Part shown: positions 5,779 to 29,422 of the stretch, piece by piece
How positions within the stretch are numbered: the first letter of the stretch is position 1
How the letters are laid out: each line of letters begins with the position of its first letter
IMG/VR virus record: IMGVR_UViG_3300025120_000250
Span: 1 to 34,132 of that record
From: a virus
Direction: 5' to 3' (one strand)
DNA: 34,132 nucleotides
Notes under the pieces: generated by a model
Told to the model about the DNA's origin: nothing
Database searches by the model: none
The model's input: the letters and a program-made list of their open reading frames with translations, nothing else
Position numbers and translations under genes: made by a program

Positions 5779-6477
5779 ATGCCAAATTGGAAAAAAGTGA
5801 TTGTATCCGGATCGGATGCATCATTAAACATAGTAAGCGCAAACCAAATCTCCGGTTCCTTTTCTGGATCATACGTAGGAGATGGTTCACAATTATCAGG
5901 AATATCCACTACACCATTCCCATTCGTCGGAGATGCTCAAATAAGTGGATCGTTAATAGTATCTGCTTCTGCAACATCACAATCATTGTCTGTAATAGGA
6001 AGTGGTTCAACGGTATTTGATGTAATAGGAAGTGTAGGTACTCTATTTTCTGTCGATGACGATCTATCCGAAACACTATTTTCAGCTAATGACTTATCAG
6101 GATTTCCAGTATTACAAGCATCTGCTAGTGGTGATGTGTTTATAGGTAAAACACCTCAGTCATTGTATACTACTGCCGTAATAAGTAGCACAATTGGATC
6201 TACAACCACCGAATCAATATGCTCTTTAAGCACGAGCTCATATGATGGGGCATTTTTTGAATACACTGCTAGAGAAGTTGGAAATAGCAACTCACGAGCT
6301 GGAAGCATAATGGCAGTATGGAATGGTGCAAATATCAGCTTTACAGATACATCTACCAGAGATATAGGAAGCACATCTCTTCTCATAATAAAACCAATAA
6401 TATCAGGAAGTACAGCAAGATTGGTTGTTTATGGAGATAGCGGATTTAAAGTTAAAACAATAATCAAGGCAATATAG
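5779..6477 (+). CDS. Fibre-type virion protein with shared N-terminal module
   Basis: A 232-residue protein starting MPNWKKVIVSGSDAS, nearly the same as the start of the 4005-5309 product. It is followed by a GSFSGSYVGDGSQLSG motif (about 27-42) that matches the 3542-3943 product. It therefore combines two modules found separately in its neighbours. The middle is built of short Ser/Gly beta repeats (ISGSLIVSASATSQSLSVIG). The C-terminal 90 residues look like a compact beta domain (FFEYTAREVGNSNSRAGSIM) that could be a distal tip. Its stop codon shares its G with the GTG start of the first lectin gene. Likely part of a fibre; the partner is unknown. Confidence 0.6.
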   Translation: MPNWKKVIVSGSDASLNIVSANQISGSFSGSYVGDGSQLSGISTTPFPFVGDAQISGSLIVSASATSQSLSVIGSGSTVFDVIGSVGTLFSVDDDLSETLFSANDLSGFPVLQASASGDVFIGKTPQSLYTTAVISSTIGSTTTESICSLSTSSYDGAFFEYTAREVGNSNSRAGSIMAVWNGANISFTDTSTRDIGSTSLLIIKPIISGSTARLVVYGDSGFKVKTIIKAI

Positions 6478-7166
6478 TGGGTATAAGGAGAGGCTCCATA
6501 ACGACACCGGTGATAGCAGATGGGCTGATCATTAATCATGATGCAGCTAATAGAGCAAGCTATATTCCCAACGCTACTACAACATACAATACAATCGACT
6601 TGTCTCAAACAGGAACTTTCGTAAACTCACCCACATTTGTAAGCTCTACACCCTCATGGGATTTTGATGGAACAGATACATCTATTAATTGTGGTGATTA
6701 TGAAATGAACGCATTCCGCGGATTTGCTGTTGAAGCTTGGTTCAAATCAGATTCAACAAATAATCAAAGTAGAAGAATAGTCTCAAAAGATCAAGTAGGA
6801 GTTGCAGGTGCATGGATATTATGGACCAACTCATCAGATCTGAAATTTCAAGCATATGATGGAGGATGGGTAACTGCTACATATTCAGCTTACTCAGAAG
6901 ACAGCAATTGGCATCATGTAATAGCAAATGTATCTGGCGGTAGAGTTGGACTTTTTTTAGATGGTGTAAATGTTGCAACTACCTCTGGATTTTCATCACT
7001 TGATGATGCTGATAACGAAGTAATAGCAATAGGAGCAGATAGTGATCCTTCTTCTCCAGAGCATGTATGGAATGGCCAAATTGCAAACGTAAGAGTATAT
7101 AATAGAGGATTAGAAGAAAGCGAAATATTACACAACTACAATGCACTTAAAGGGAGATTTGAATAA
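6477..7166 (+). CDS. LamG/concanavalin-like lectin-fold protein, copy 1
   Basis: A 229-residue protein with a GTG start overlapping the previous TAG by one base. The N-terminus GSITTPVIADGLIINHDAAN (about 6-25) leads into a LamG-type jelly-roll: FAVEAWFKSD (about 82-91), SNWHHVIANVSGGRVGLFLD (about 143-162) and IANVRVYNRGLEESEILHNY (about 204-223). W-H-H-V followed by a G-x-x-x-x-L-x-x-D/NG strand and the final VYNR-x-L strand are hallmarks of laminin-G/concanavalin-like domains, which bind glycans or other surface ligands. It is the first of three tandem paralogues sharing both ends and differing in the middle. The lectin role on the virion is an inference. Confidence 0.75.
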   Translation: MGIRRGSITTPVIADGLIINHDAANRASYIPNATTTYNTIDLSQTGTFVNSPTFVSSTPSWDFDGTDTSINCGDYEMNAFRGFAVEAWFKSDSTNNQSRRIVSKDQVGVAGAWILWTNSSDLKFQAYDGGWVTATYSAYSEDSNWHHVIANVSGGRVGLFLDGVNVATTSGFSSLDDADNEVIAIGADSDPSSPEHVWNGQIANVRVYNRGLEESEILHNYNALKGRFE

Positions 7167-7852
7167 TGAAGTTTGGCAGCATAACAACTCCTATAATAAC
7201 TGATGGATTGGTATTCAATATGGATGCTGCAAATAGAGCAAGCTATCCTAGAACTGGTACTACTGCTACAGATACAGTTGGTAATAAAACTGGAACTATT
7301 TCTGGAGCAACATTTGTTAGTGCTGGACAAGGAGGATTTGATTTTGACGGGTCTGATGATGTGATAACCACAAATTTAGTATATAGCTTATCCTCTACGA
7401 CTACAGAATTTAGTTGTGGATGTTGGTTTAAAGCAGGAACACAGAGTGAAAATACATTATTAGTTTCTAACTATAATTTTACTCCAATACCATTTAACTT
7501 ATATTTGAAAAGTGATGGTACGTGTCAAGGAACCAGTAGAAATTCATCTAATACTACTATCAGTGTAGGATCTGGTGATACTTATGATGATAATGAATAT
7601 CACAATTTTTATTATCAACGAGATGCAAATAATACATATTACACCTACGTAGATGGAATACTAAAAAATACTGGTACTGCAACTTTAGGTGCTATAGCAA
7701 CAACTAATGCTATTCTAATAGGAAAACTTGGGCAATATACACAAGGTTATTTTGATGGTATCATTAACACAGTTCAAATATACAATCGCGCCTTATCCTC
7801 AACAGAAGTACTACACAACTACAATGCATTAAAATCAAGGTTCGGATTATGA
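7166..7852 (+). CDS. LamG/concanavalin-like lectin-fold protein, copy 2
   Basis: A 228-residue paralogue of copy 1. The ATG overlaps the previous TAA by one base. It starts MKFGSITTPIITDGLVFNMD and ends QIYNRALSSTEVLHNYNALK plus five residues. The middle has the LamG strands TEFSCGCWFKAG (about 75-86), YHNFYYQRDANNTYYTYVDG (about 143-162) and GYFDGIINTVQIYNRAL (about 194-210). A 39-base stretch near its start (7192-7230) is identical to copy 3 at 7881-7919. The likely role is a surface-ligand-binding head on a fibre or baseplate. It differs from copy 1 mainly in the loops that would form the binding face. Confidence 0.75.
   Translation: MKFGSITTPIITDGLVFNMDAANRASYPRTGTTATDTVGNKTGTISGATFVSAGQGGFDFDGSDDVITTNLVYSLSSTTTEFSCGCWFKAGTQSENTLLVSNYNFTPIPFNLYLKSDGTCQGTSRNSSNTTISVGSGDTYDDNEYHNFYYQRDANNTYYTYVDGILKNTGTATLGAIATTNAILIGKLGQYTQGYFDGIINTVQIYNRALSSTEVLHNYNALKSRFGL
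7192..7230 (+). repeat. 39-base exact direct repeat, unit 1
   Basis: Identical base for base to 7881-7919. It encodes the shared N-terminal segment of lectin copies 2 and 3 and could be a substrate for recombination between them. Confidence 0.85.
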
Positions 7853-8538
7853 GTGGAAGAGTAGGTAGCATAACGACGGGTATAATAACTGATGGATTGG
7901 TATTCAATATGGATGCTGCTAATAGGGCATCATATCCTAAAAGTGGTACTAATGCTTTTAATACTATTGATACATCAAATTCCGGAAGTTTAGAAAATGG
8001 AATAGAATATTTTCCTGATAGACATAGTGGAGGATTCAAATGGGATGCTACAGATAGTTATATTATATTAGATAGTAACTTTTTTTCACAAAATTATACA
8101 TCATTTACACATTGTGCTTTCGTAGAATTTTACAGCGTTGCTGGTTCTTCTATAATACTAGATGCTAGAGATAGCAGCGGCGATGGTGTTAGTTTTTTAA
8201 TGTCATCTCCTAGTGGTGACGTATTATATGCAGCTTTAGATTCAGGAAATGTTACAGGAGGTACTACAATATCTATTGATCAAGTTTATCATACAACACT
8301 AACTTATGATGGACAAACTGCTAAACTTTATTTGAATGGTGTGCCCGACGGAAGCTCTTCTACATCACAAGCATTTAACACTACAGCTAAACCCACAATT
8401 GGAATACGATCATTTAATATAGGATCTGCAACACCGTCTAGTATTTATTTATATCATATATGTTCATATAATCGCGCCTTATCAGCCACAGAAGTACTAC
8501 ATAACTACGACGCATTAAAGGGTAGATTTAACTTATAA
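7849..8538 (+). CDS. LamG/concanavalin-like lectin-fold protein, copy 3
   Basis: A 229-residue paralogue starting MSGRVGSITTGIITDGLVFN; the ATG overlaps the preceding TGA (ATGA, four bases). LamG-like strands are visible at VYHTTLTYDGQTAKLYLNG (about 145-163), and the C-terminus HICSYNRALSATEVLHNYDA parallels copies 1 and 2. The central part differs from both. It ends 17 bases before the next ATG. Together the three genes look like a family made by tandem duplication, with constant termini and variable cores. A TATTTATA copy also occurs inside this gene at 8446-8453. Confidence 0.74.
   Translation: MSGRVGSITTGIITDGLVFNMDAANRASYPKSGTNAFNTIDTSNSGSLENGIEYFPDRHSGGFKWDATDSYIILDSNFFSQNYTSFTHCAFVEFYSVAGSSIILDARDSSGDGVSFLMSSPSGDVLYAALDSGNVTGGTTISIDQVYHTTLTYDGQTAKLYLNGVPDGSSSTSQAFNTTAKPTIGIRSFNIGSATPSSIYLYHICSYNRALSATEVLHNYDALKGRFNL
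7881..7919 (+). repeat. 39-base exact direct repeat, unit 2
   Basis: Second copy of the repeat at 7192-7230, at the equivalent position in lectin copy 3. Confidence 0.85.
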
Positions 8539-22110: not shown

Positions 22111-22866
22111 ATGGGAACATCGGGAAGTAAAAAGAATAGCAAGAAAACAAAAAGGTTCAAAAGACCAACTCCAGAACAGTTATTAAAAAATAGCCAAATA
22201 CACAAGTATACTAAGGGCGGTGAATTTACAACCACAAATGGAGAAGAATATATAGGTGAATATCATATACGAGATGGCAAGACTTACACAGGTCCCACAC
22301 CCAACTCTCAGGGTGTAGATATGAGTCTTCAACTACTACCGTTCTATAGTAATACTAACAATTTTACATATGATAGATTGCATAAATTTGTCACACCAAT
22401 AAAAGATCACACCGAACCCACTCCCTACACATACCAAACTAGACCTTCTGAAGGTGTTTATGATTTAGGTTTTGATACAAGGTTTTTTGTACAAAGACGC
22501 GGATTAGGTAATTTTGCTATCGAAATAACTAGTGATCAGAGAAATCGCTTTGGAAGTGATTTTGGAATTGATGATAGTATATATGATGTAGTTGATGTTA
22601 TGTGGCAACTTACCGGAACTATTGAATATATTGAGATGACAAATAAAGATCGAATCCGCCAAGCATCCTTCATTGTTCCGGACATCGCATCTCTCATTAC
22701 CAACTATACTCAGTTTGCAGTCCCAACCGACCAAACAGAATTTGGTAATCCAGAAGCTTTAATGACAAGAAGCATGCTTACAGCTGGAAAAAAAGCAACA
22801 CGTAAAATAACCTTTGATCAAAAAACAGGCAAAATTATAACTCCTAAACCTTTGAGTAAACGATAA
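22111..22866 (+). CDS. Probable baseplate/virion protein, unknown
   Basis: A 251-residue protein with a very basic N-terminus (SKKNSKKTKRFKRP) and then GGEFTTTNGEEYIGEYHIRD (about 36-55), followed by GKTYTGPTPNSQG. The E-Y-x-G-x-Y-x-x-x-x-G-x-x-Y-T-G pattern recurs in uncharacterised structural proteins of marine phages. A C-terminal segment TGTIEYIEMTNKDRIRQASF lies near 166-185. It starts 11 bases after the probable hub gene and ends the virion cluster; the replication genes begin 20 bases later behind a different type of promoter. A role at the baseplate is likely from position only. Confidence 0.5.
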   Translation: MGTSGSKKNSKKTKRFKRPTPEQLLKNSQIHKYTKGGEFTTTNGEEYIGEYHIRDGKTYTGPTPNSQGVDMSLQLLPFYSNTNNFTYDRLHKFVTPIKDHTEPTPYTYQTRPSEGVYDLGFDTRFFVQRRGLGNFAIEITSDQRNRFGSDFGIDDSIYDVVDVMWQLTGTIEYIEMTNKDRIRQASFIVPDIASLITNYTQFAVPTDQTEFGNPEALMTRSMLTAGKKATRKITFDQKTGKIITPKPLSKR

Positions 22867-22885: not shown

Positions 22886-24214
22886 ATGGTTATAGACAAC
22901 GAGCAACAGTTACTAGAGTTGAAAGATAAGGTATTATTCATCGTACCAATTCCAGAAGACGATCGAGTACATTCTACACAGAATAAGATTATTGCGTTAG
23001 CAATTAAAGAAGGCCACTTAGGTCCATCCTATATTGTAGGAGTAGATCATCCAGAGGCTATTTACAATATGTCACTATCTCTATTAAGTGAGTTTTCTAA
23101 TCTACTATTCTGTACAGATATTCATCTTTTTAAAAATCATATGATTGAATTAGTATCAGAACCGACACTTATGGATCTAGATATGATTCACTATCTTAAA
23201 ACTAGACAAAAGCTAGAAAAAGAATCAGGTGTGATGGTTACACGATATAATCGTAGCATGTCGGGATGTAAGAAAACAAACTCACTTATATCATTACTCA
23301 AACTACAAGAGCGAGTGGATCGTATATGTAATCAATTCACAGACATTAATGTTCCTAGTGGTTATGATTTTTATGCAAACAAACTTCGAGGAGTATTTAA
23401 TTGGATTGAGTCGAGTGGATTACGTGTAGATAAAGAGAAGTATAAAGAACGATTTGGAAAAACATTTAGCCGAGTTGGTGACAAATGCTACACACAATAC
23501 AACTATTACACAACGACGGGAAGACCAAGTAATCGCTTTGGAGGAGTGAACTATGCAGCATTACCTAAAGATGAAACTCGTGAATGTTTTGTTAGTAGGT
23601 ATGGTGATGATGGATGTTTAGTAGAGTTAGACTTTAATTCATACCATCCTAGGATTATAGCAACACTAATTGATTACGATTTTGGTAAAGATAATGTTTA
23701 CGAGCATTTAGCTAAGCACTATCACAATACAGATACACCAACACAAGATCAAATATCCAAAGCTAAAGAGGACACATTCAGACAATTGTATGGAGGAATA
23801 CGAAAGGATTATTTACATATACCATTCTTTGCAAAGACAGATGCCTTCGTAAAGGATTTGTGGGAGCGGAAAGAGTTAGATGCATATGTTGAGAGTCCAA
23901 TATCTTACAGACGACTTGAATGGCAAAACTACAAAGATGTAACTCCTTATACCTTTTTCAACTACTACATTCAGATGATGGAGACTGAGTATAACGTAGA
24001 GATGTTAATTGCAATGAGTGAACATTTTGCACAATCTGGAATCAAGAGCGAGCCAGTACTGTACACATATGATAGTGTATTGTTTGATGTACACAAAGAA
24101 CACAAAGACCTACTAATCAAAGAAATCATACCAGCATCAATCGATTTGTATAAGTTTCCAATCAAAGTTAAGAGTGGAAAAGATTACGCAAATTTGGATT
24201 TTTGTACAACTTAG
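22886..24214 (+). CDS. DNA polymerase, family A, compact and divergent
   Basis: A 442-residue polymerase. The family A order is clear: YYTTTGRPSN (207-216), motif A LDFNSYHPRII (248-258), motif B KEDTFRQLYGG (294-304) and motif C YTYDSVLFDV (393-402). Catalytic D249 and D396 are present, as are the O-helix K294, F298 and Y302-G303. Two usual residues differ: the motif A Glu that acts as steric gate is H254, and motif C HDE reads YDS. Residues 1-150 align only loosely with a 3'-5' exonuclease fold and lack its acidic motifs, so proofreading is probably absent. It has no 5' nuclease domain, but a separate one lies at 26978. T4 itself uses a family B enzyme. Confidence 0.85.
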   Translation: MVIDNEQQLLELKDKVLFIVPIPEDDRVHSTQNKIIALAIKEGHLGPSYIVGVDHPEAIYNMSLSLLSEFSNLLFCTDIHLFKNHMIELVSEPTLMDLDMIHYLKTRQKLEKESGVMVTRYNRSMSGCKKTNSLISLLKLQERVDRICNQFTDINVPSGYDFYANKLRGVFNWIESSGLRVDKEKYKERFGKTFSRVGDKCYTQYNYYTTTGRPSNRFGGVNYAALPKDETRECFVSRYGDDGCLVELDFNSYHPRIIATLIDYDFGKDNVYEHLAKHYHNTDTPTQDQISKAKEDTFRQLYGGIRKDYLHIPFFAKTDAFVKDLWERKELDAYVESPISYRRLEWQNYKDVTPYTFFNYYIQMMETEYNVEMLIAMSEHFAQSGIKSEPVLYTYDSVLFDVHKEHKDLLIKEIIPASIDLYKFPIKVKSGKDYANLDFCTT

Positions 24215-24494: not shown

Positions 24495-24869
24495 ATGAGA
24501 TCACAGTTACTTTGCACCTTTACGACAGTGTCGGACCTCCCGTCATGTATTACTAGAATCCATAAAACATACCAAGTTGAACATGTTTCTAATATGAGAT
24601 GCTACCAATACACGGATGAGTCTTCTGTAGTGTGTATATATAATACAACCAACACACAGAGCCGAATGTCAGATACAATCACAATAAACAGAAAAAAAGA
24701 GTCAGAAACCTTATACAGCATCAACGCACTCAATGCACTAATTCGTGAACAAAACAATGGTGTGCTTGATAAAACGTATCGTGTTGACTGGACTCAATTT
24801 GCTAATCGCATACTGCTTACTAATCGAGATGGATCTTTTAGAAGCGTAGAAATAAAACATCTTCAATGA
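24495..24869 (+). CDS. Unknown protein
   Basis: A 124-residue protein not recognised. It has four cysteines scattered in the first 50 residues, beta-rich stretches (SSVVCIYNTTNTQ, about 43-55) and a helical middle SETLYSINALNALIREQNNG. It ends TNRDGSFRSVEIKHLQ. No signal peptide or membrane segment. It starts five bases after the preceding stop, so the two are probably co-transcribed, and it is followed by the ssb promoter. Confidence 0.42.
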   Translation: MRSQLLCTFTTVSDLPSCITRIHKTYQVEHVSNMRCYQYTDESSVVCIYNTTNTQSRMSDTITINRKKESETLYSINALNALIREQNNGVLDKTYRVDWTQFANRILLTNRDGSFRSVEIKHLQ

Positions 24870-25047: not shown

Positions 25048-25815
25048 ATGGCACTAGATTTAGATGCAATCAAAGCGAAGCTTACAGAGCTTCAAACAAG
25101 TAGCGGTGGAAACAGAAACTCAGATGTATTCTGGAAACCACCAACTGGGAAATCCCAAATTAGAATCGTACCATACGCATTCGACAAATCAAACCCTTTT
25201 CAAGAACTTTACTTTCACTACGACATAGGTAAGAAGACTATGATATCTCCAAGCTCATTTGGAAGACCTGATCCCGTACTCGAGTTTGCAGAGCAACTTA
25301 AAAGTACTGGAGACAAAGAAGATTGGAAGATGGGAAGAAAGATGGAACCAAAGTTCAGATGCTATGCTCCAGTCATTGTGAGAGGACAAGAATCAGAAGG
25401 AGTTAAGTTTTATGCTTTCGGAAAGAAGATCTACTCTGAATTGTTAGGAGTAATTACAGATCCAGACTACGGAGATATTACAGATCTCAGTGGTGGTAGA
25501 GATGTTACCATCGAAAGAATCGAACCAGACAAAGAGGGTGGTTACCCGTCTTACAATGTTAGAGTTAAGCCTAACACTACACCAGCTACAGAGGATAAGA
25601 ATATCGCAGATATGATTGTCAACCAACAGCCAGAATTGACAAAGATGTTTACTGAATTATCTTATGAAGATATGAAGGTATCATTGGAGGAGTGGTTGAA
25701 GCCAGGTGAAGGTGCTCAAGCTACTACAACAACCAAAGCCCCGATCACTGGAGCTAAGACAGCTAACACAACAGACGATATCTCAACAGCATTCGGAGAT
25801 TTATTTAATTCATAA
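25048..25815 (+). CDS. Single-stranded DNA-binding protein, gp32-like
   Basis: A 255-residue protein. The core begins FWKPPTGKSQIRIVPYAFDK (about 28-47) and PFQELYFHYDIG, which is the gp32-type OB-fold start of T4-like phages. Aromatic and basic residues suited to ssDNA binding continue to about 180. The C-terminus is an acidic, aromatic-ended tail (DDISTAFGDLFNS), as in gp32, where it recruits replication and recombination partners. T4 gp32 is about 301 residues. The zinc-binding cysteine/histidine cluster of T4 gp32 is not evident. UvsX follows five bases downstream, giving the expected ssb-recombinase pair. Confidence 0.85.
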   Translation: MALDLDAIKAKLTELQTSSGGNRNSDVFWKPPTGKSQIRIVPYAFDKSNPFQELYFHYDIGKKTMISPSSFGRPDPVLEFAEQLKSTGDKEDWKMGRKMEPKFRCYAPVIVRGQESEGVKFYAFGKKIYSELLGVITDPDYGDITDLSGGRDVTIERIEPDKEGGYPSYNVRVKPNTTPATEDKNIADMIVNQQPELTKMFTELSYEDMKVSLEEWLKPGEGAQATTTTKAPITGAKTANTTDDISTAFGDLFNS

Positions 25816-25820
25816 TAATT

Positions 25821-26981
25821 ATGGCAAAAGCAAAAGTTACACCCGATGAAATAGCGGGAAGGGACGAGCTGGCTCAAGAGTTAGCATCAAGTCTAAATAA
25901 GAAGTTTAAGGACTTCAAAGCTGTTCATTTTTTAGGAGAGGAGAAAACACAAACCGATCTTTCGGATTGGGTGTCAACCGGATCAACTGATCTAGACCTT
26001 GCCATATCAAATCGACCTGATGGAGGATTACCAGTAGGAAGAATCGCAGAATTTACCGGGCTTGAAGCGTCCGGTAAATCTCTGATTGCAGCTCACCTAT
26101 TAGCTAATACTCAGAAGAAAGGTGGTATAGCAGTTTACATTGATACTGAGAATGCACTAAGTGAAGAGTTTCTTACTGCAATTGGTGTTGATGTAAAGAA
26201 CATGCTATATCTACCAATGGATACAATTGAAGACATATTTGAAGCAATAGAGAACCTGATACTTGATATTCGTAAGAATAGTAAAGACAGACTCGTAACG
26301 ATTGTTGTAGATTCAGTAGCAGCTGCTACTACGAAGATAGAGCAAGATGCTGACTATGATAAAGATGGATGGGCTACCTCCAAGGCTATCATTATGTCAA
26401 AAGCGTTGAGAAAGATAACTAACCTTATTGGGAAAGAGAAAGTAATCTTAGCGTTCACAAATCAGTTGAGAGAAAAGTTAGGTGCCATGTTTGGAGACAA
26501 ATACACTACAAGTGGAGGAAAGGCTTTGCCATTCCATGCAAGCTGTAGAGTTAGACTTCAAGCTGTTGGTAAGATTAAAGATAGTGATGGTGAAATAATT
26601 GGCGTAAACACTCAAGCCACGATTGTAAAGAATAGATACGGACCTCCTTTCAAGAAAGCGAAGTTTAGTATCTACTTTGATTCTGGTATAGATGATGACG
26701 CTAGTTGGTTAGACACACTCAAAAAGTTTAAAGTTATAACGGTGGGAGGATCTTGGTACACTCTTGTGATGGAAGACACTGGAGAGGTAGTCAAATTCCA
26801 ATCTAAGGAATGGAGAGACATACTCAAAAGACCAGATGTTAGAGCGTATTGTAAAAATGCCATTGAGCAGAATAGCATATCGCATTATAAAACACAGATA
26901 GAGATAGATCCAGATGAGTTAACAATTGACACATCTAACATGGAAGGAATTGATACACCACTAAACCAAGACGAGGAATGA
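25821..26981 (+). CDS. uvsX: UvsX/RecA-like recombinase
   Basis: A 386-residue protein close in length to T4 UvsX (about 391). Walker A GLEASGKS at 80-87, catalytic Glu in YIDTENA (E110) and Walker B VTIVVDSVAA (D164) are intact. A loop region FTNQLREKLGAMFGDKYTTS (about 214-233), then GGKALPFHAS, matches the RecA/UvsX DNA-binding loop and glutamine switch area (NQ). The C-terminus is acidic (DTPLNQDEE). It catalyses strand exchange for recombination-dependent replication and repair together with the ssDNA-binding protein encoded upstream. Its TGA overlaps the next ATG (ATGA), so it is translationally coupled to the 5' nuclease. Confidence 0.93.
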   Translation: MAKAKVTPDEIAGRDELAQELASSLNKKFKDFKAVHFLGEEKTQTDLSDWVSTGSTDLDLAISNRPDGGLPVGRIAEFTGLEASGKSLIAAHLLANTQKKGGIAVYIDTENALSEEFLTAIGVDVKNMLYLPMDTIEDIFEAIENLILDIRKNSKDRLVTIVVDSVAAATTKIEQDADYDKDGWATSKAIIMSKALRKITNLIGKEKVILAFTNQLREKLGAMFGDKYTTSGGKALPFHASCRVRLQAVGKIKDSDGEIIGVNTQATIVKNRYGPPFKKAKFSIYFDSGIDDDASWLDTLKKFKVITVGGSWYTLVMEDTGEVVKFQSKEWRDILKRPDVRAYCKNAIEQNSISHYKTQIEIDPDELTIDTSNMEGIDTPLNQDEE

Positions 26982-28021
26982 AAAATAAGTATGCTAAATT
27001 GCTAAATCAATTAAAGTTGCGTGAGACAGAGGAGCCTAAACATAGAGATGATCGAGTATTGATCGTAGATGGATTAAACACATTCATACGAGCTTACTCA
27101 GCAACACCCACTCTAAACGCTAATGGCGAACATTGTGGTGGGATCTCAGGTTTCTTATCTAGTATGGGTCACGCCATCAAAACAATTAACCCAACACGAG
27201 TGGTAGTTGTATTCGATGGTAAAAATGGATCAGCTACTAGAAGAAAACTGTATCCAGGATATAAGGCTACACGTAAGGTCAGCATCCGACTTAACAGAGC
27301 TCAATCTGTTGACAAGGAAGACAATCAGTTAGAACAATTAATCAGATTGATTGACTATCTTGAGACTTTACCAATCACCGTAATAACTTTAGACGGAGCA
27401 GAAGCTGATGATATAATTGCTTATATCACAAATAGCATACTTACACCGAAAGACTCTCACTCATTTATCATGTCTTCCGATAAAGACTTCTTACAATTGG
27501 TATCCAACAAAACACACGTTTGGAGTCCAACAAAAAAGAAGCTATATTATGAAGATGATGTGTATAGTGAGTATGGAGTTATTCCTCAGAACTTTGCGGT
27601 ATACCGTGCTTTAGAAGGGGACTCCTCGGATAATATTCCAGGAGCTCCCGGTCTAAAGTTGAAGACGATCCTAAAGAGATGGCCAAAAATGGCAGAACAG
27701 ACAACAACATCTCTTGAAGAGTTTTTCTCGTACAATGAAGAGTTGGTGAAAGACTCTAAGATCAAAGCGTATCAAGTAGTTGAAGAGAGTGTAGAAGACA
27801 TTAAACTGTATCATAAGATAATGCAATTAGATGAGACTATACTTAACTCAACAACTCAACTCCGCATACACGATCACATGGACGATGAGGGACGCACCTT
27901 AGCAAAGATGACCTTTCATAGACTATTGATTGAGGATGGAATGACAAACGCCATACGTAATCCAGAAATGTGGTTGCGAGACGTTACCACTAAACTAAAT
28001 CAATACACAAATTTGTTGTAA
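26978..28021 (+). CDS. 5'-3' exonuclease / flap nuclease (Pol I N-domain, T4 RNase H type)
   Basis: A 347-residue nuclease with the complete acidic site of the FEN/5' nuclease family: D31 in VLIVDGLN, D80 in VVVVFDG, E142/D144/D145 in GAEADDIIAY, D168/D170 in SSDKDF, and D215/D218 in EGDSSDNIPGAPG, which begins the helix-hairpin-helix DNA-binding motif. It would remove RNA primers and flaps from Okazaki fragments, complementing the polymerase at 22886 that lacks this domain. In effect the two halves of a bacterial Pol I are encoded separately. T4 RNase H is about 305 residues. Confidence 0.9.
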   Translation: MKNKYAKLLNQLKLRETEEPKHRDDRVLIVDGLNTFIRAYSATPTLNANGEHCGGISGFLSSMGHAIKTINPTRVVVVFDGKNGSATRRKLYPGYKATRKVSIRLNRAQSVDKEDNQLEQLIRLIDYLETLPITVITLDGAEADDIIAYITNSILTPKDSHSFIMSSDKDFLQLVSNKTHVWSPTKKKLYYEDDVYSEYGVIPQNFAVYRALEGDSSDNIPGAPGLKLKTILKRWPKMAEQTTTSLEEFFSYNEELVKDSKIKAYQVVEESVEDIKLYHKIMQLDETILNSTTQLRIHDHMDDEGRTLAKMTFHRLLIEDGMTNAIRNPEMWLRDVTTKLNQYTNLL

Positions 28022-28051: not shown

Positions 28052-29422
28052 ATGGGAACACAAGATACTTTTCAATTATACGGAGCTGGTTTTCAAAGTA
28101 AGCTGTTAGCGGTCCTAATTAAAGACCGAATTTTTCTACAACAGATACACGATATCCTTGATCCGACATACTTTTCCTCAGAATCATCACAATGGATTGC
28201 AAAGACGATTGCAAAGTATTTTGACGAATATAAGACCACACCTACATTAGAAGTAATGAAGGTTGAGATTGACAGTGTCGAACAAGACGTTCTAAAGACT
28301 ACTGTAATTGATAATCTAAAAGATGTGATGAAACACATTGACTCTTTGGATTCAGAGTACATAAAAGATAAGACTTTAGATTTTTGTAAGAATCAAAAAC
28401 TTAAAGGAGCTATTTTAGAATCTGTACAACTACTACAGCAAGGAAAATATGATGCTATCAAGAGCACAGTAGATGAGGCTATGAAGGCCGGATCAGATAA
28501 GGACATTGGGCATGAGTATATTGAAAACGTTGAAGCAAGGTTTGATGCAAATAGCAGAAAGACAGTCCCAACTCCATGGGAAGTGATTAACGACATAACC
28601 GATGGAGGATTAGGTCCAGGAGAGATGGGAGTGTTTGTTGCACCTGCTGGTATTGGTAAGTCAATGGCATTGGTTAATGCAGCAGCTCACTGCGCCAAGC
28701 AAGGATTGAATGTAGTTTATTATACGCTAGAACTTTCTGACACTTATGTAGGTGGACGGTTTGATAGCTACTACACAGGTATCCCAACCTCAGATTTAAA
28801 GTATCATCGAGAGGAGGTTGAAGAAGCAATGCAAAAGCTTCCAGGCAAATTAATTATTAAGTACTATCCAACAAAGACCGCTACTGTAAATACGATAGCA
28901 GCTCACCTCGATAAGTGTGCAATCCAAGGAGCTACCCCTGACATAGTGTTTTTAGATTATGCTGATCTACTAAGAGATGCAGGAACAAATAAGAATGCTC
29001 GACATGATCAAGTATTGGGAGGCATCTATGAGGAGTTGAGAGGGCTAGCTGGACTACATAAAATACCTATATGGACTGCATCACAAGCAAACAGAAGCGC
29101 TGCTGAGATGGAAGTAATAGAGGCAGATAAGATTGCTGAATCATACACTAAAGTAATGGTAGCTGATTTTATTGTATCGCTATCCAGAAAGACTGCAGAT
29201 AAGATTAGTGGTACTGGAAGATGGCACATAATAAAGAATCGGTTCGGACCAGATGGGTTGACTTTCCCAAGCAAGATGAATATGGCAGTTTGTGGTATTG
29301 AGATATATGAAGAGAACACAATCTTAGGACAGCAAACTAAAAAAGTTATGAACAATGACGACACGGTAATCAGGAATGCCTTGGCAAATAAATTTGAAGA
29401 ATTAAACAAATTAATCGACTAA
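28052..29422 (+). CDS. Replicative DNA helicase, DnaB/gp41-like
   Basis: A 456-residue protein, near T4 gp41 (about 475). The N-terminal 150 residues are helical, with FLQQIHDILDPTYFSSESSQ near 28-47 as in DnaB-type N-domains. The RecA-like motor has Walker A APAGIGKS (197-204), YYTLELSD containing the catalytic Glu (E227), Walker B PDIVFLDYADLL (D302) and a TASQANRS motif (Q345). A KNRFGPDGLTF stretch near the C-terminus (about 395-405) contains the arginine-finger region. It unwinds DNA as a hexamer on the lagging strand. No primase is visible in the window. Confidence 0.92.
   Translation: MGTQDTFQLYGAGFQSKLLAVLIKDRIFLQQIHDILDPTYFSSESSQWIAKTIAKYFDEYKTTPTLEVMKVEIDSVEQDVLKTTVIDNLKDVMKHIDSLDSEYIKDKTLDFCKNQKLKGAILESVQLLQQGKYDAIKSTVDEAMKAGSDKDIGHEYIENVEARFDANSRKTVPTPWEVINDITDGGLGPGEMGVFVAPAGIGKSMALVNAAAHCAKQGLNVVYYTLELSDTYVGGRFDSYYTGIPTSDLKYHREEVEEAMQKLPGKLIIKYYPTKTATVNTIAAHLDKCAIQGATPDIVFLDYADLLRDAGTNKNARHDQVLGGIYEELRGLAGLHKIPIWTASQANRSAAEMEVIEADKIAESYTKVMVADFIVSLSRKTADKISGTGRWHIIKNRFGPDGLTFPSKMNMAVCGIEIYEENTILGQQTKKVMNNDDTVIRNALANKFEELNKLID

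Follow-up and report, generated by a model that had tools for sequence, protein, structure and literature searches.

In the cultured Flavobacterium phage vB_FspM_immuto (immuto) and related phages, an extra divergent family A DNA polymerase (PolA), named divPolA1, was described by Yutin et al. (2024, Virol J 21:200; PMC11348598). According to the main text of that article, which covers 14 genomes of 155–190 kb, divPolA1 is found in a conserved replication context and has a truncated thumb and an inactivated exonuclease domain, with the palm residues kept. The same phages also hold a regular PolA, PolB or PolC near GroEL/ES. From the replication-gene context the authors conclude that divPolA1 takes part in replication, whereas the role of the regular polymerases is called "less obvious". 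The name divPolA1 was found only in this article and its preprint in the literature searched, which contained no biochemistry for any member of the family. A second type, divPolA2 of the barbaviruses (AUR84708), is described in the same main text as another divergent PolA that, like divPolA1, accompanies a regular PolB and has no homologous thumb; it has no exonuclease and carries an unrelated N-terminal domain (PMC11348598).

Identity of the polymerase gene

The stretch of DNA analyzed here (the window) comprises the whole of an IMG/VR record, 34,132 bases long, and is most likely a genome fragment. It encodes a compact, divPolA1-type family A polymerase of 442 amino acids (positions 22886–24214), which was recognized from the open reading frame, Pfam and PHROG matches, alignment, a structural model and homology to the immuto protein. 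This gene and the five genes that follow it, described below, are on the forward strand. The coordinates are exactly those of a preliminary description of the locus made from the sequence alone. The strand opposite the open frame is rich in stops. The match to the Pfam DNA_pol_A profile is below the curated cut-off of 34.3 (20.4 bits, E = 2.8e-4), and a match at 3.4e-12 was obtained to the "DNA polymerase" family of PHROG. The gene product thus matches family A, and no DNA_pol_B domain was detected within the 34 kb window.

A protein search against named phages gave matches in immuto, in Microcystis phage Mel-JY01 and in the 484 kb record LR756508. The immuto homologue (MW353175-7/NC_055915) aligned over 76% of the query with an identity of 30% and an E-value of 9e-41, and close IMG/VR copies were 86–100% identical to the window polymerase. 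A profile scan of IMG/VR identified at least 570 relatives among the 600 candidate stretches listed, and a plasmid search returned none. The 14 genomes covered in the main text of Yutin et al. are thus joined by hundreds of relatives from metagenomes and by the 484 kb record. The ratio dN/dS against close relatives was 0.08–0.12, which indicates that the gene is under constraint. Together with the number of relatives and the residues D249, H254, F298, Y302, Y395 and D396, which are fixed in 81 aligned sequences, this ratio shows that the gene is real and not a chance reading frame. The window protein is a member of divPolA1, since it is homologous to the immuto protein, retains the palm residues, has a truncated thumb and an inactivated exonuclease domain, and is followed by the same replication genes.

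The phylogenetic tree contains very long branches and is usable for two groupings only: the compact polymerases form a single clade, and the regular PolAs of the same phages form a separate grouping, both with a support of 100/100. The compact enzymes are thus not recent duplicates of the regular PolAs.

Two other systems were compared. AUR84708 scored 1.7 bits against the divPolA1 profile, which is not significant and provided no homologous palm alignment; its apparent motifs A (DFKAFE) and C (FDE), located by eye, retain the Glu, unlike the window protein. Rhodothermus phage RM378, an isolate of the Far-T4 group, shares the T4-type backbone, an unusual set of replication genes and a separate 5' nuclease. 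Its polymerase, unlike that of the window, appears by eye to be a split family B enzyme, with DFTSLYPS in gp092 and the exonuclease motifs in gp024. These two proteins (gp024 and gp092; L044 21996–22937, L123 29587–31155) look like the two halves of a PolB, and a split family A polymerase in RM378 was rejected because the motifs identified by eye are those of family B.

Predicted fold and active site

The AlphaFold2 model, for which the input was 51 relatives with the rows from the phage collection left out, had a pLDDT of 91.5 and aligned with the large fragment of Bst Pol I over its whole length (Z 26.5, rmsd 3.9 Å, 408 aligned residues, 1–438 on 302–876). The fold is thus shared with the Bst and Klenow fragments, whereas the window polymerase falls short of the Bst fragment by about 140 residues, has no thumb, and has other residues at the positions equivalent to E710, R754 and H881. 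The exonuclease domain of Bst is likewise inactive.

When the N-terminal third was compared with exonuclease domains through sequence profiles alone, the similarity was weak, and residues 1–159 (22886–23362) were therefore predicted on their own. The resulting model (pLDDT 85.8) matched residues 331–511 of Klenow with Z 10.9 and rmsd 3.2 Å over 148 aligned residues. In a register taken from the secondary structure, neither a D-x-E at the first strand nor a Y-x3-D was observed. The match and the absence of these motifs indicate that the domain is a Klenow-type 3'-5' exonuclease fold without its catalytic acids. The absence of the acids had been noted in the preliminary description; the domain is not featureless, being a degenerate exonuclease fold. 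The lack of a palm, fingers and thumb fold, which that description had named as evidence against its reading, was borne out by half, with palm and fingers present and the thumb absent. The place of the thumb is taken by a short linker (residues 178–205; 23417–23500). The interval from G178 to Y205 measures 11–29 residues in the 81 relatives, as compared to 115 in E. coli Pol I and 188–225 in the phage PolAs measured (115–225 in canonical PolAs overall), and the model contains no long thumb helices. We conclude from these spacings that the thumb has been lost.

All four family A motifs noted initially were confirmed, and residue counts were taken from the 81 aligned compact polymerases. The TTGRPSN motif (residues 210–216; 23513–23533) corresponds to the "TGRLS" motif, with R213 equivalent to Pol I R668; R213, P214, S215 and N216 are fixed as aligned. 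Motif A, DFNSYHPR (residues 249–256; 23630–23653), contains the catalytic, metal-binding D249 (D705) and, at the position of the steric-gate residue E710, H254. The O helix (23753–23794) contains K294-x3-F298-x3-Y302-G, equivalent to K758, F762 and Y766, with I290 at the position of R754. Motif C, YTYDSVLFD (residues 393–401; 24062–24088), contains Y395 (H881), the second metal-binding Asp, D396 (D882), and S397 (E883). D249, H254, F298, Y302, Q363 (Q849), Y395 and D396 did not vary among the 81 sequences, K294 was fixed apart from one unreadable residue, and N359 (N845) was Asn in 80 of the 81. E710, R754 and H881 were invariant in six diverse canonical PolAs, and the window protein has His, Ile and Tyr at these positions.

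The exchange of the gate Glu for His, which was recognized from the window alone, thus extends to 81 of 81 relatives, and it is no artefact of the scan, since H254 lies outside the search patterns. The R754 position is occupied by Ile (40 sequences), Tyr (32), Val (4), Leu (4) and Arg (1). The single Arg belongs to L118 (282–1601), where it lies within the clean stretch DEQRAESKQITF and looks real, so that the loss of R754, seen in 80 of 81 sequences, is not absolute. Tyr and Asp of motif C were found in 81 of 81 sequences each, followed by Ser in 75 and Ala in 6, a count biased towards itself because YD[SA] belonged to one of the two search patterns. The YDS sequence is present as first described, but its Ser is not unusual, since HDS is found in the HMO-2011-, CRP-235-, SPO1-like and Kayvirus polymerases, and the characterized Tt72 polymerase also has Ser at the position of E883 (PMC9324360).

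In the Tt72 polymerase, mutant E389A, in which the gate Glu is exchanged, retains 35% and mutant S616A 76% of the activity (PMC9324360), and exclusion of rNTPs is weakened in the Bst mutant E658A (PMC7200780). By analogy with these mutants, it is plausible that the compact polymerase is an active enzyme with altered nucleotide handling. A change in sugar discrimination is possible as judged from the residues, and the bulky H254 may still serve as a gate. The terms "steric" and "histidine" do not occur in the main text of Yutin et al. (PMC11348598); the His gate, the loss of R754 and the Tyr at position 881 thus go beyond that main text, although the figure alignments of the article may display them.

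Replication module and second polymerase

The polymerase gene is followed by an open frame of 124 amino acids (24495–24869), which is kept in nearly all loci, has a weak match to phrog_1000 and may encode a partner of either the polymerase or the single-strand DNA-binding protein (SSB). Next are genes for a gp32-like SSB (25048–25815; phrog_1192, 2.7e-25), a UvsX-like recombinase (25821–26981; phrog_97, 9.5e-70), a stand-alone 5'-3' exonuclease of the FEN type (26978–28021; phrog_107, 6.3e-41) and a DnaB-like replicative helicase (28052–29422; phrog_19, 3.4e-81). The assignments of the SSB, recombinase and helicase are also supported by synteny, and the immuto homologue of the exonuclease is annotated as a 5'-3' exonuclease, in agreement with the earlier suggestion that the 5' nuclease is encoded separately. 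This gene order, from the polymerase to the helicase, was observed in nearly all of 87 loci, often followed by ribonucleotide reductase and in some loci interrupted by additional genes. The order in immuto is the same. Upstream of the polymerase, an open frame of 251 amino acids (22111–22866) has no PHROG match and is kept in many relatives. Elsewhere in the window, a PhoH-like gene (217–594) adjoins structural genes, an arrangement reported for Far-T4 phage contigs (PMC4360716), and three consecutive open frames of 228–229 amino acids (6477–8538), which belong to the same families (phrog_24074, phrog_8510), appear to be paralogues of a virion protein arranged in tandem.

No second polymerase was found within the 34 kb of the window. 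The closest long relative, G001 (165.6 kb), encodes a compact polymerase 90% identical to that of the window and, in addition, a regular PolA of 748 amino acids (50553–52799) with a DTET exonuclease motif, a Glu gate, an R..K O helix and HDE. The latter gene is located near GroES/GroEL, in agreement with the main text of the divPolA1 report (PMC11348598). The window is 83.6% identical to G001 over 68% of its length, and its end maps to position 62143 of G001, roughly 9 kb short of the regular PolA. Of the IMG/VR contigs, seven reach more than 30 kb downstream from the compact gene, and all of them have a second polymerase, as do all three named phage records (immuto, Mel-JY01 and LR756508). 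A second polymerase was absent from each of the five contigs with less than 19 kb downstream, and a search of the contigs lacking a second polymerase, which end within 19 kb downstream, for a family C polymerase (PF07733) was negative. The regular enzyme is a full-length PolA in G001, G009 and immuto and a PolB in G005–G008, G010, Mel-JY01 and LR756508; in Mel-JY01, the PolB gene adjoins clamp-loader genes. In LR756508.1 (260623–266900; L011–L013), PolB matches extend over two open frames of 1022 and 625 amino acids. The PolB match in G007 is split over open frames of 598 and 316 amino acids (L137 and L138), by either an insertion, an intron or a frameshift.

The preliminary description had correctly recognized that a phage with a T4-type backbone encodes a family A polymerase that lacks proofreading. 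It had further suggested that the enzyme has replaced the T4 family B replicase as the only polymerase of the phage, and had named another replicase in the genome as an observation that speaks against this. The lack of a family B polymerase in the window agrees with such a replacement. However, G001 and every other relative with enough downstream sequence carry a regular polymerase too, and divPolA1 is already presented as an additional polymerase in the main text of Yutin et al. (PMC11348598). The replacement thus fails for the group, with the reservation that the genome of the window itself is incomplete, and we regard it as very improbable for the window.

Proposed role and alternatives

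Based on the sequences and the structural model, the protein is probably an accessory divPolA1 polymerase of Far-T4/immuto-like myophages, which would act beside a regular proofreading polymerase as an active, non-proofreading enzyme of low processivity within the SSB, UvsX, exonuclease and DnaB module. It would carry out ordinary two-metal, template-directed DNA synthesis. With no thumb to grip the duplex, synthesis is expected to be distributive, and it would lack proofreading and bind nucleotides more weakly, for which reason we infer that the enzyme is held at its substrate by the SSB, UvsX and helicase module. Anatomy and gene context point to a role in short patches, which might be recombination-primed starts, gaps left by the 5' exonuclease after primer removal, or sites of lesion bypass, and which the regular polymerase would then extend. 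Without R754 and the thumb, the compact polymerase could also retain little activity.

The roles might instead be reversed, with the compact enzyme as the main replicase and the regular polymerase as the accessory. In nearly all loci, the compact gene is part of the core SSB-UvsX-exonuclease-DnaB cluster, the regular polymerase differs between phages in both family and distance, and the main text of Yutin et al. favours a role in replication (PMC11348598). We nevertheless consider this reversal unlikely, given that the compact enzyme has neither a thumb nor exonuclease acids and has almost always lost R754, that the co-resident PolAs examined are full length with a DTET exonuclease and a canonical gate, and that the PolB of Mel-JY01 lies beside clamp-loader genes. 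A relic, catalytically dead or serving as a scaffold, would be consistent with an exonuclease domain that is already dead and with the replacement of three residues invariant in canonical PolAs. Both catalytic Asp and the equivalents of F762, Y766 and Q849 are, however, fixed in 81 diverse members, the equivalent of K758 is fixed wherever readable, that of N845 is retained in all but one, and the low dN/dS also argues against loss of function, which makes a relic highly unlikely.

A changed choice of sugar, by which the enzyme would use rNTPs or make or extend RNA, for example as a primer-making or primer-extending enzyme, is suggested by the His gate in all 81 relatives, by the ribonucleotides admitted by Bst E658A (PMC7200780) and by the origin of the RNA polymerases of T7-like phages from family A enzymes, as given in the main text of Yutin et al. 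(PMC11348598). Against it, the bulky His may still exclude the 2'-OH, and the divPolA1 profile matches DNA polymerases, with T7 RNA polymerase not among the matches, although T7 DNA polymerase scores poorly too. A DnaG-type primase is, moreover, annotated in immuto and encoded by G001 and G002, and a replacement of the primase by this gene was rejected on these grounds. We therefore judge a changed sugar choice to be improbable. A more speculative view, for which we see a small chance, takes the fixed His gate, the almost universal loss of the R754 equivalent and the lack of a thumb as marks of a clade-wide switch in nucleotide and primer binding, for example towards ribonucleotides or RNA/DNA hybrid ends. 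In T4-like phages, the enzyme would then be a hand-over polymerase, placed between the replicase and either the primase or the recombinase.

Many T4-like phages thus have two DNA polymerases, of which the regular one varies between families A and B whereas the thumbless one stays. The job of the compact polymerase, if found, would explain why these phages need a second, apparently crippled polymerase, and its clade-wide His gate is a natural experiment on a residue that has so far mainly been probed by mutagenesis.
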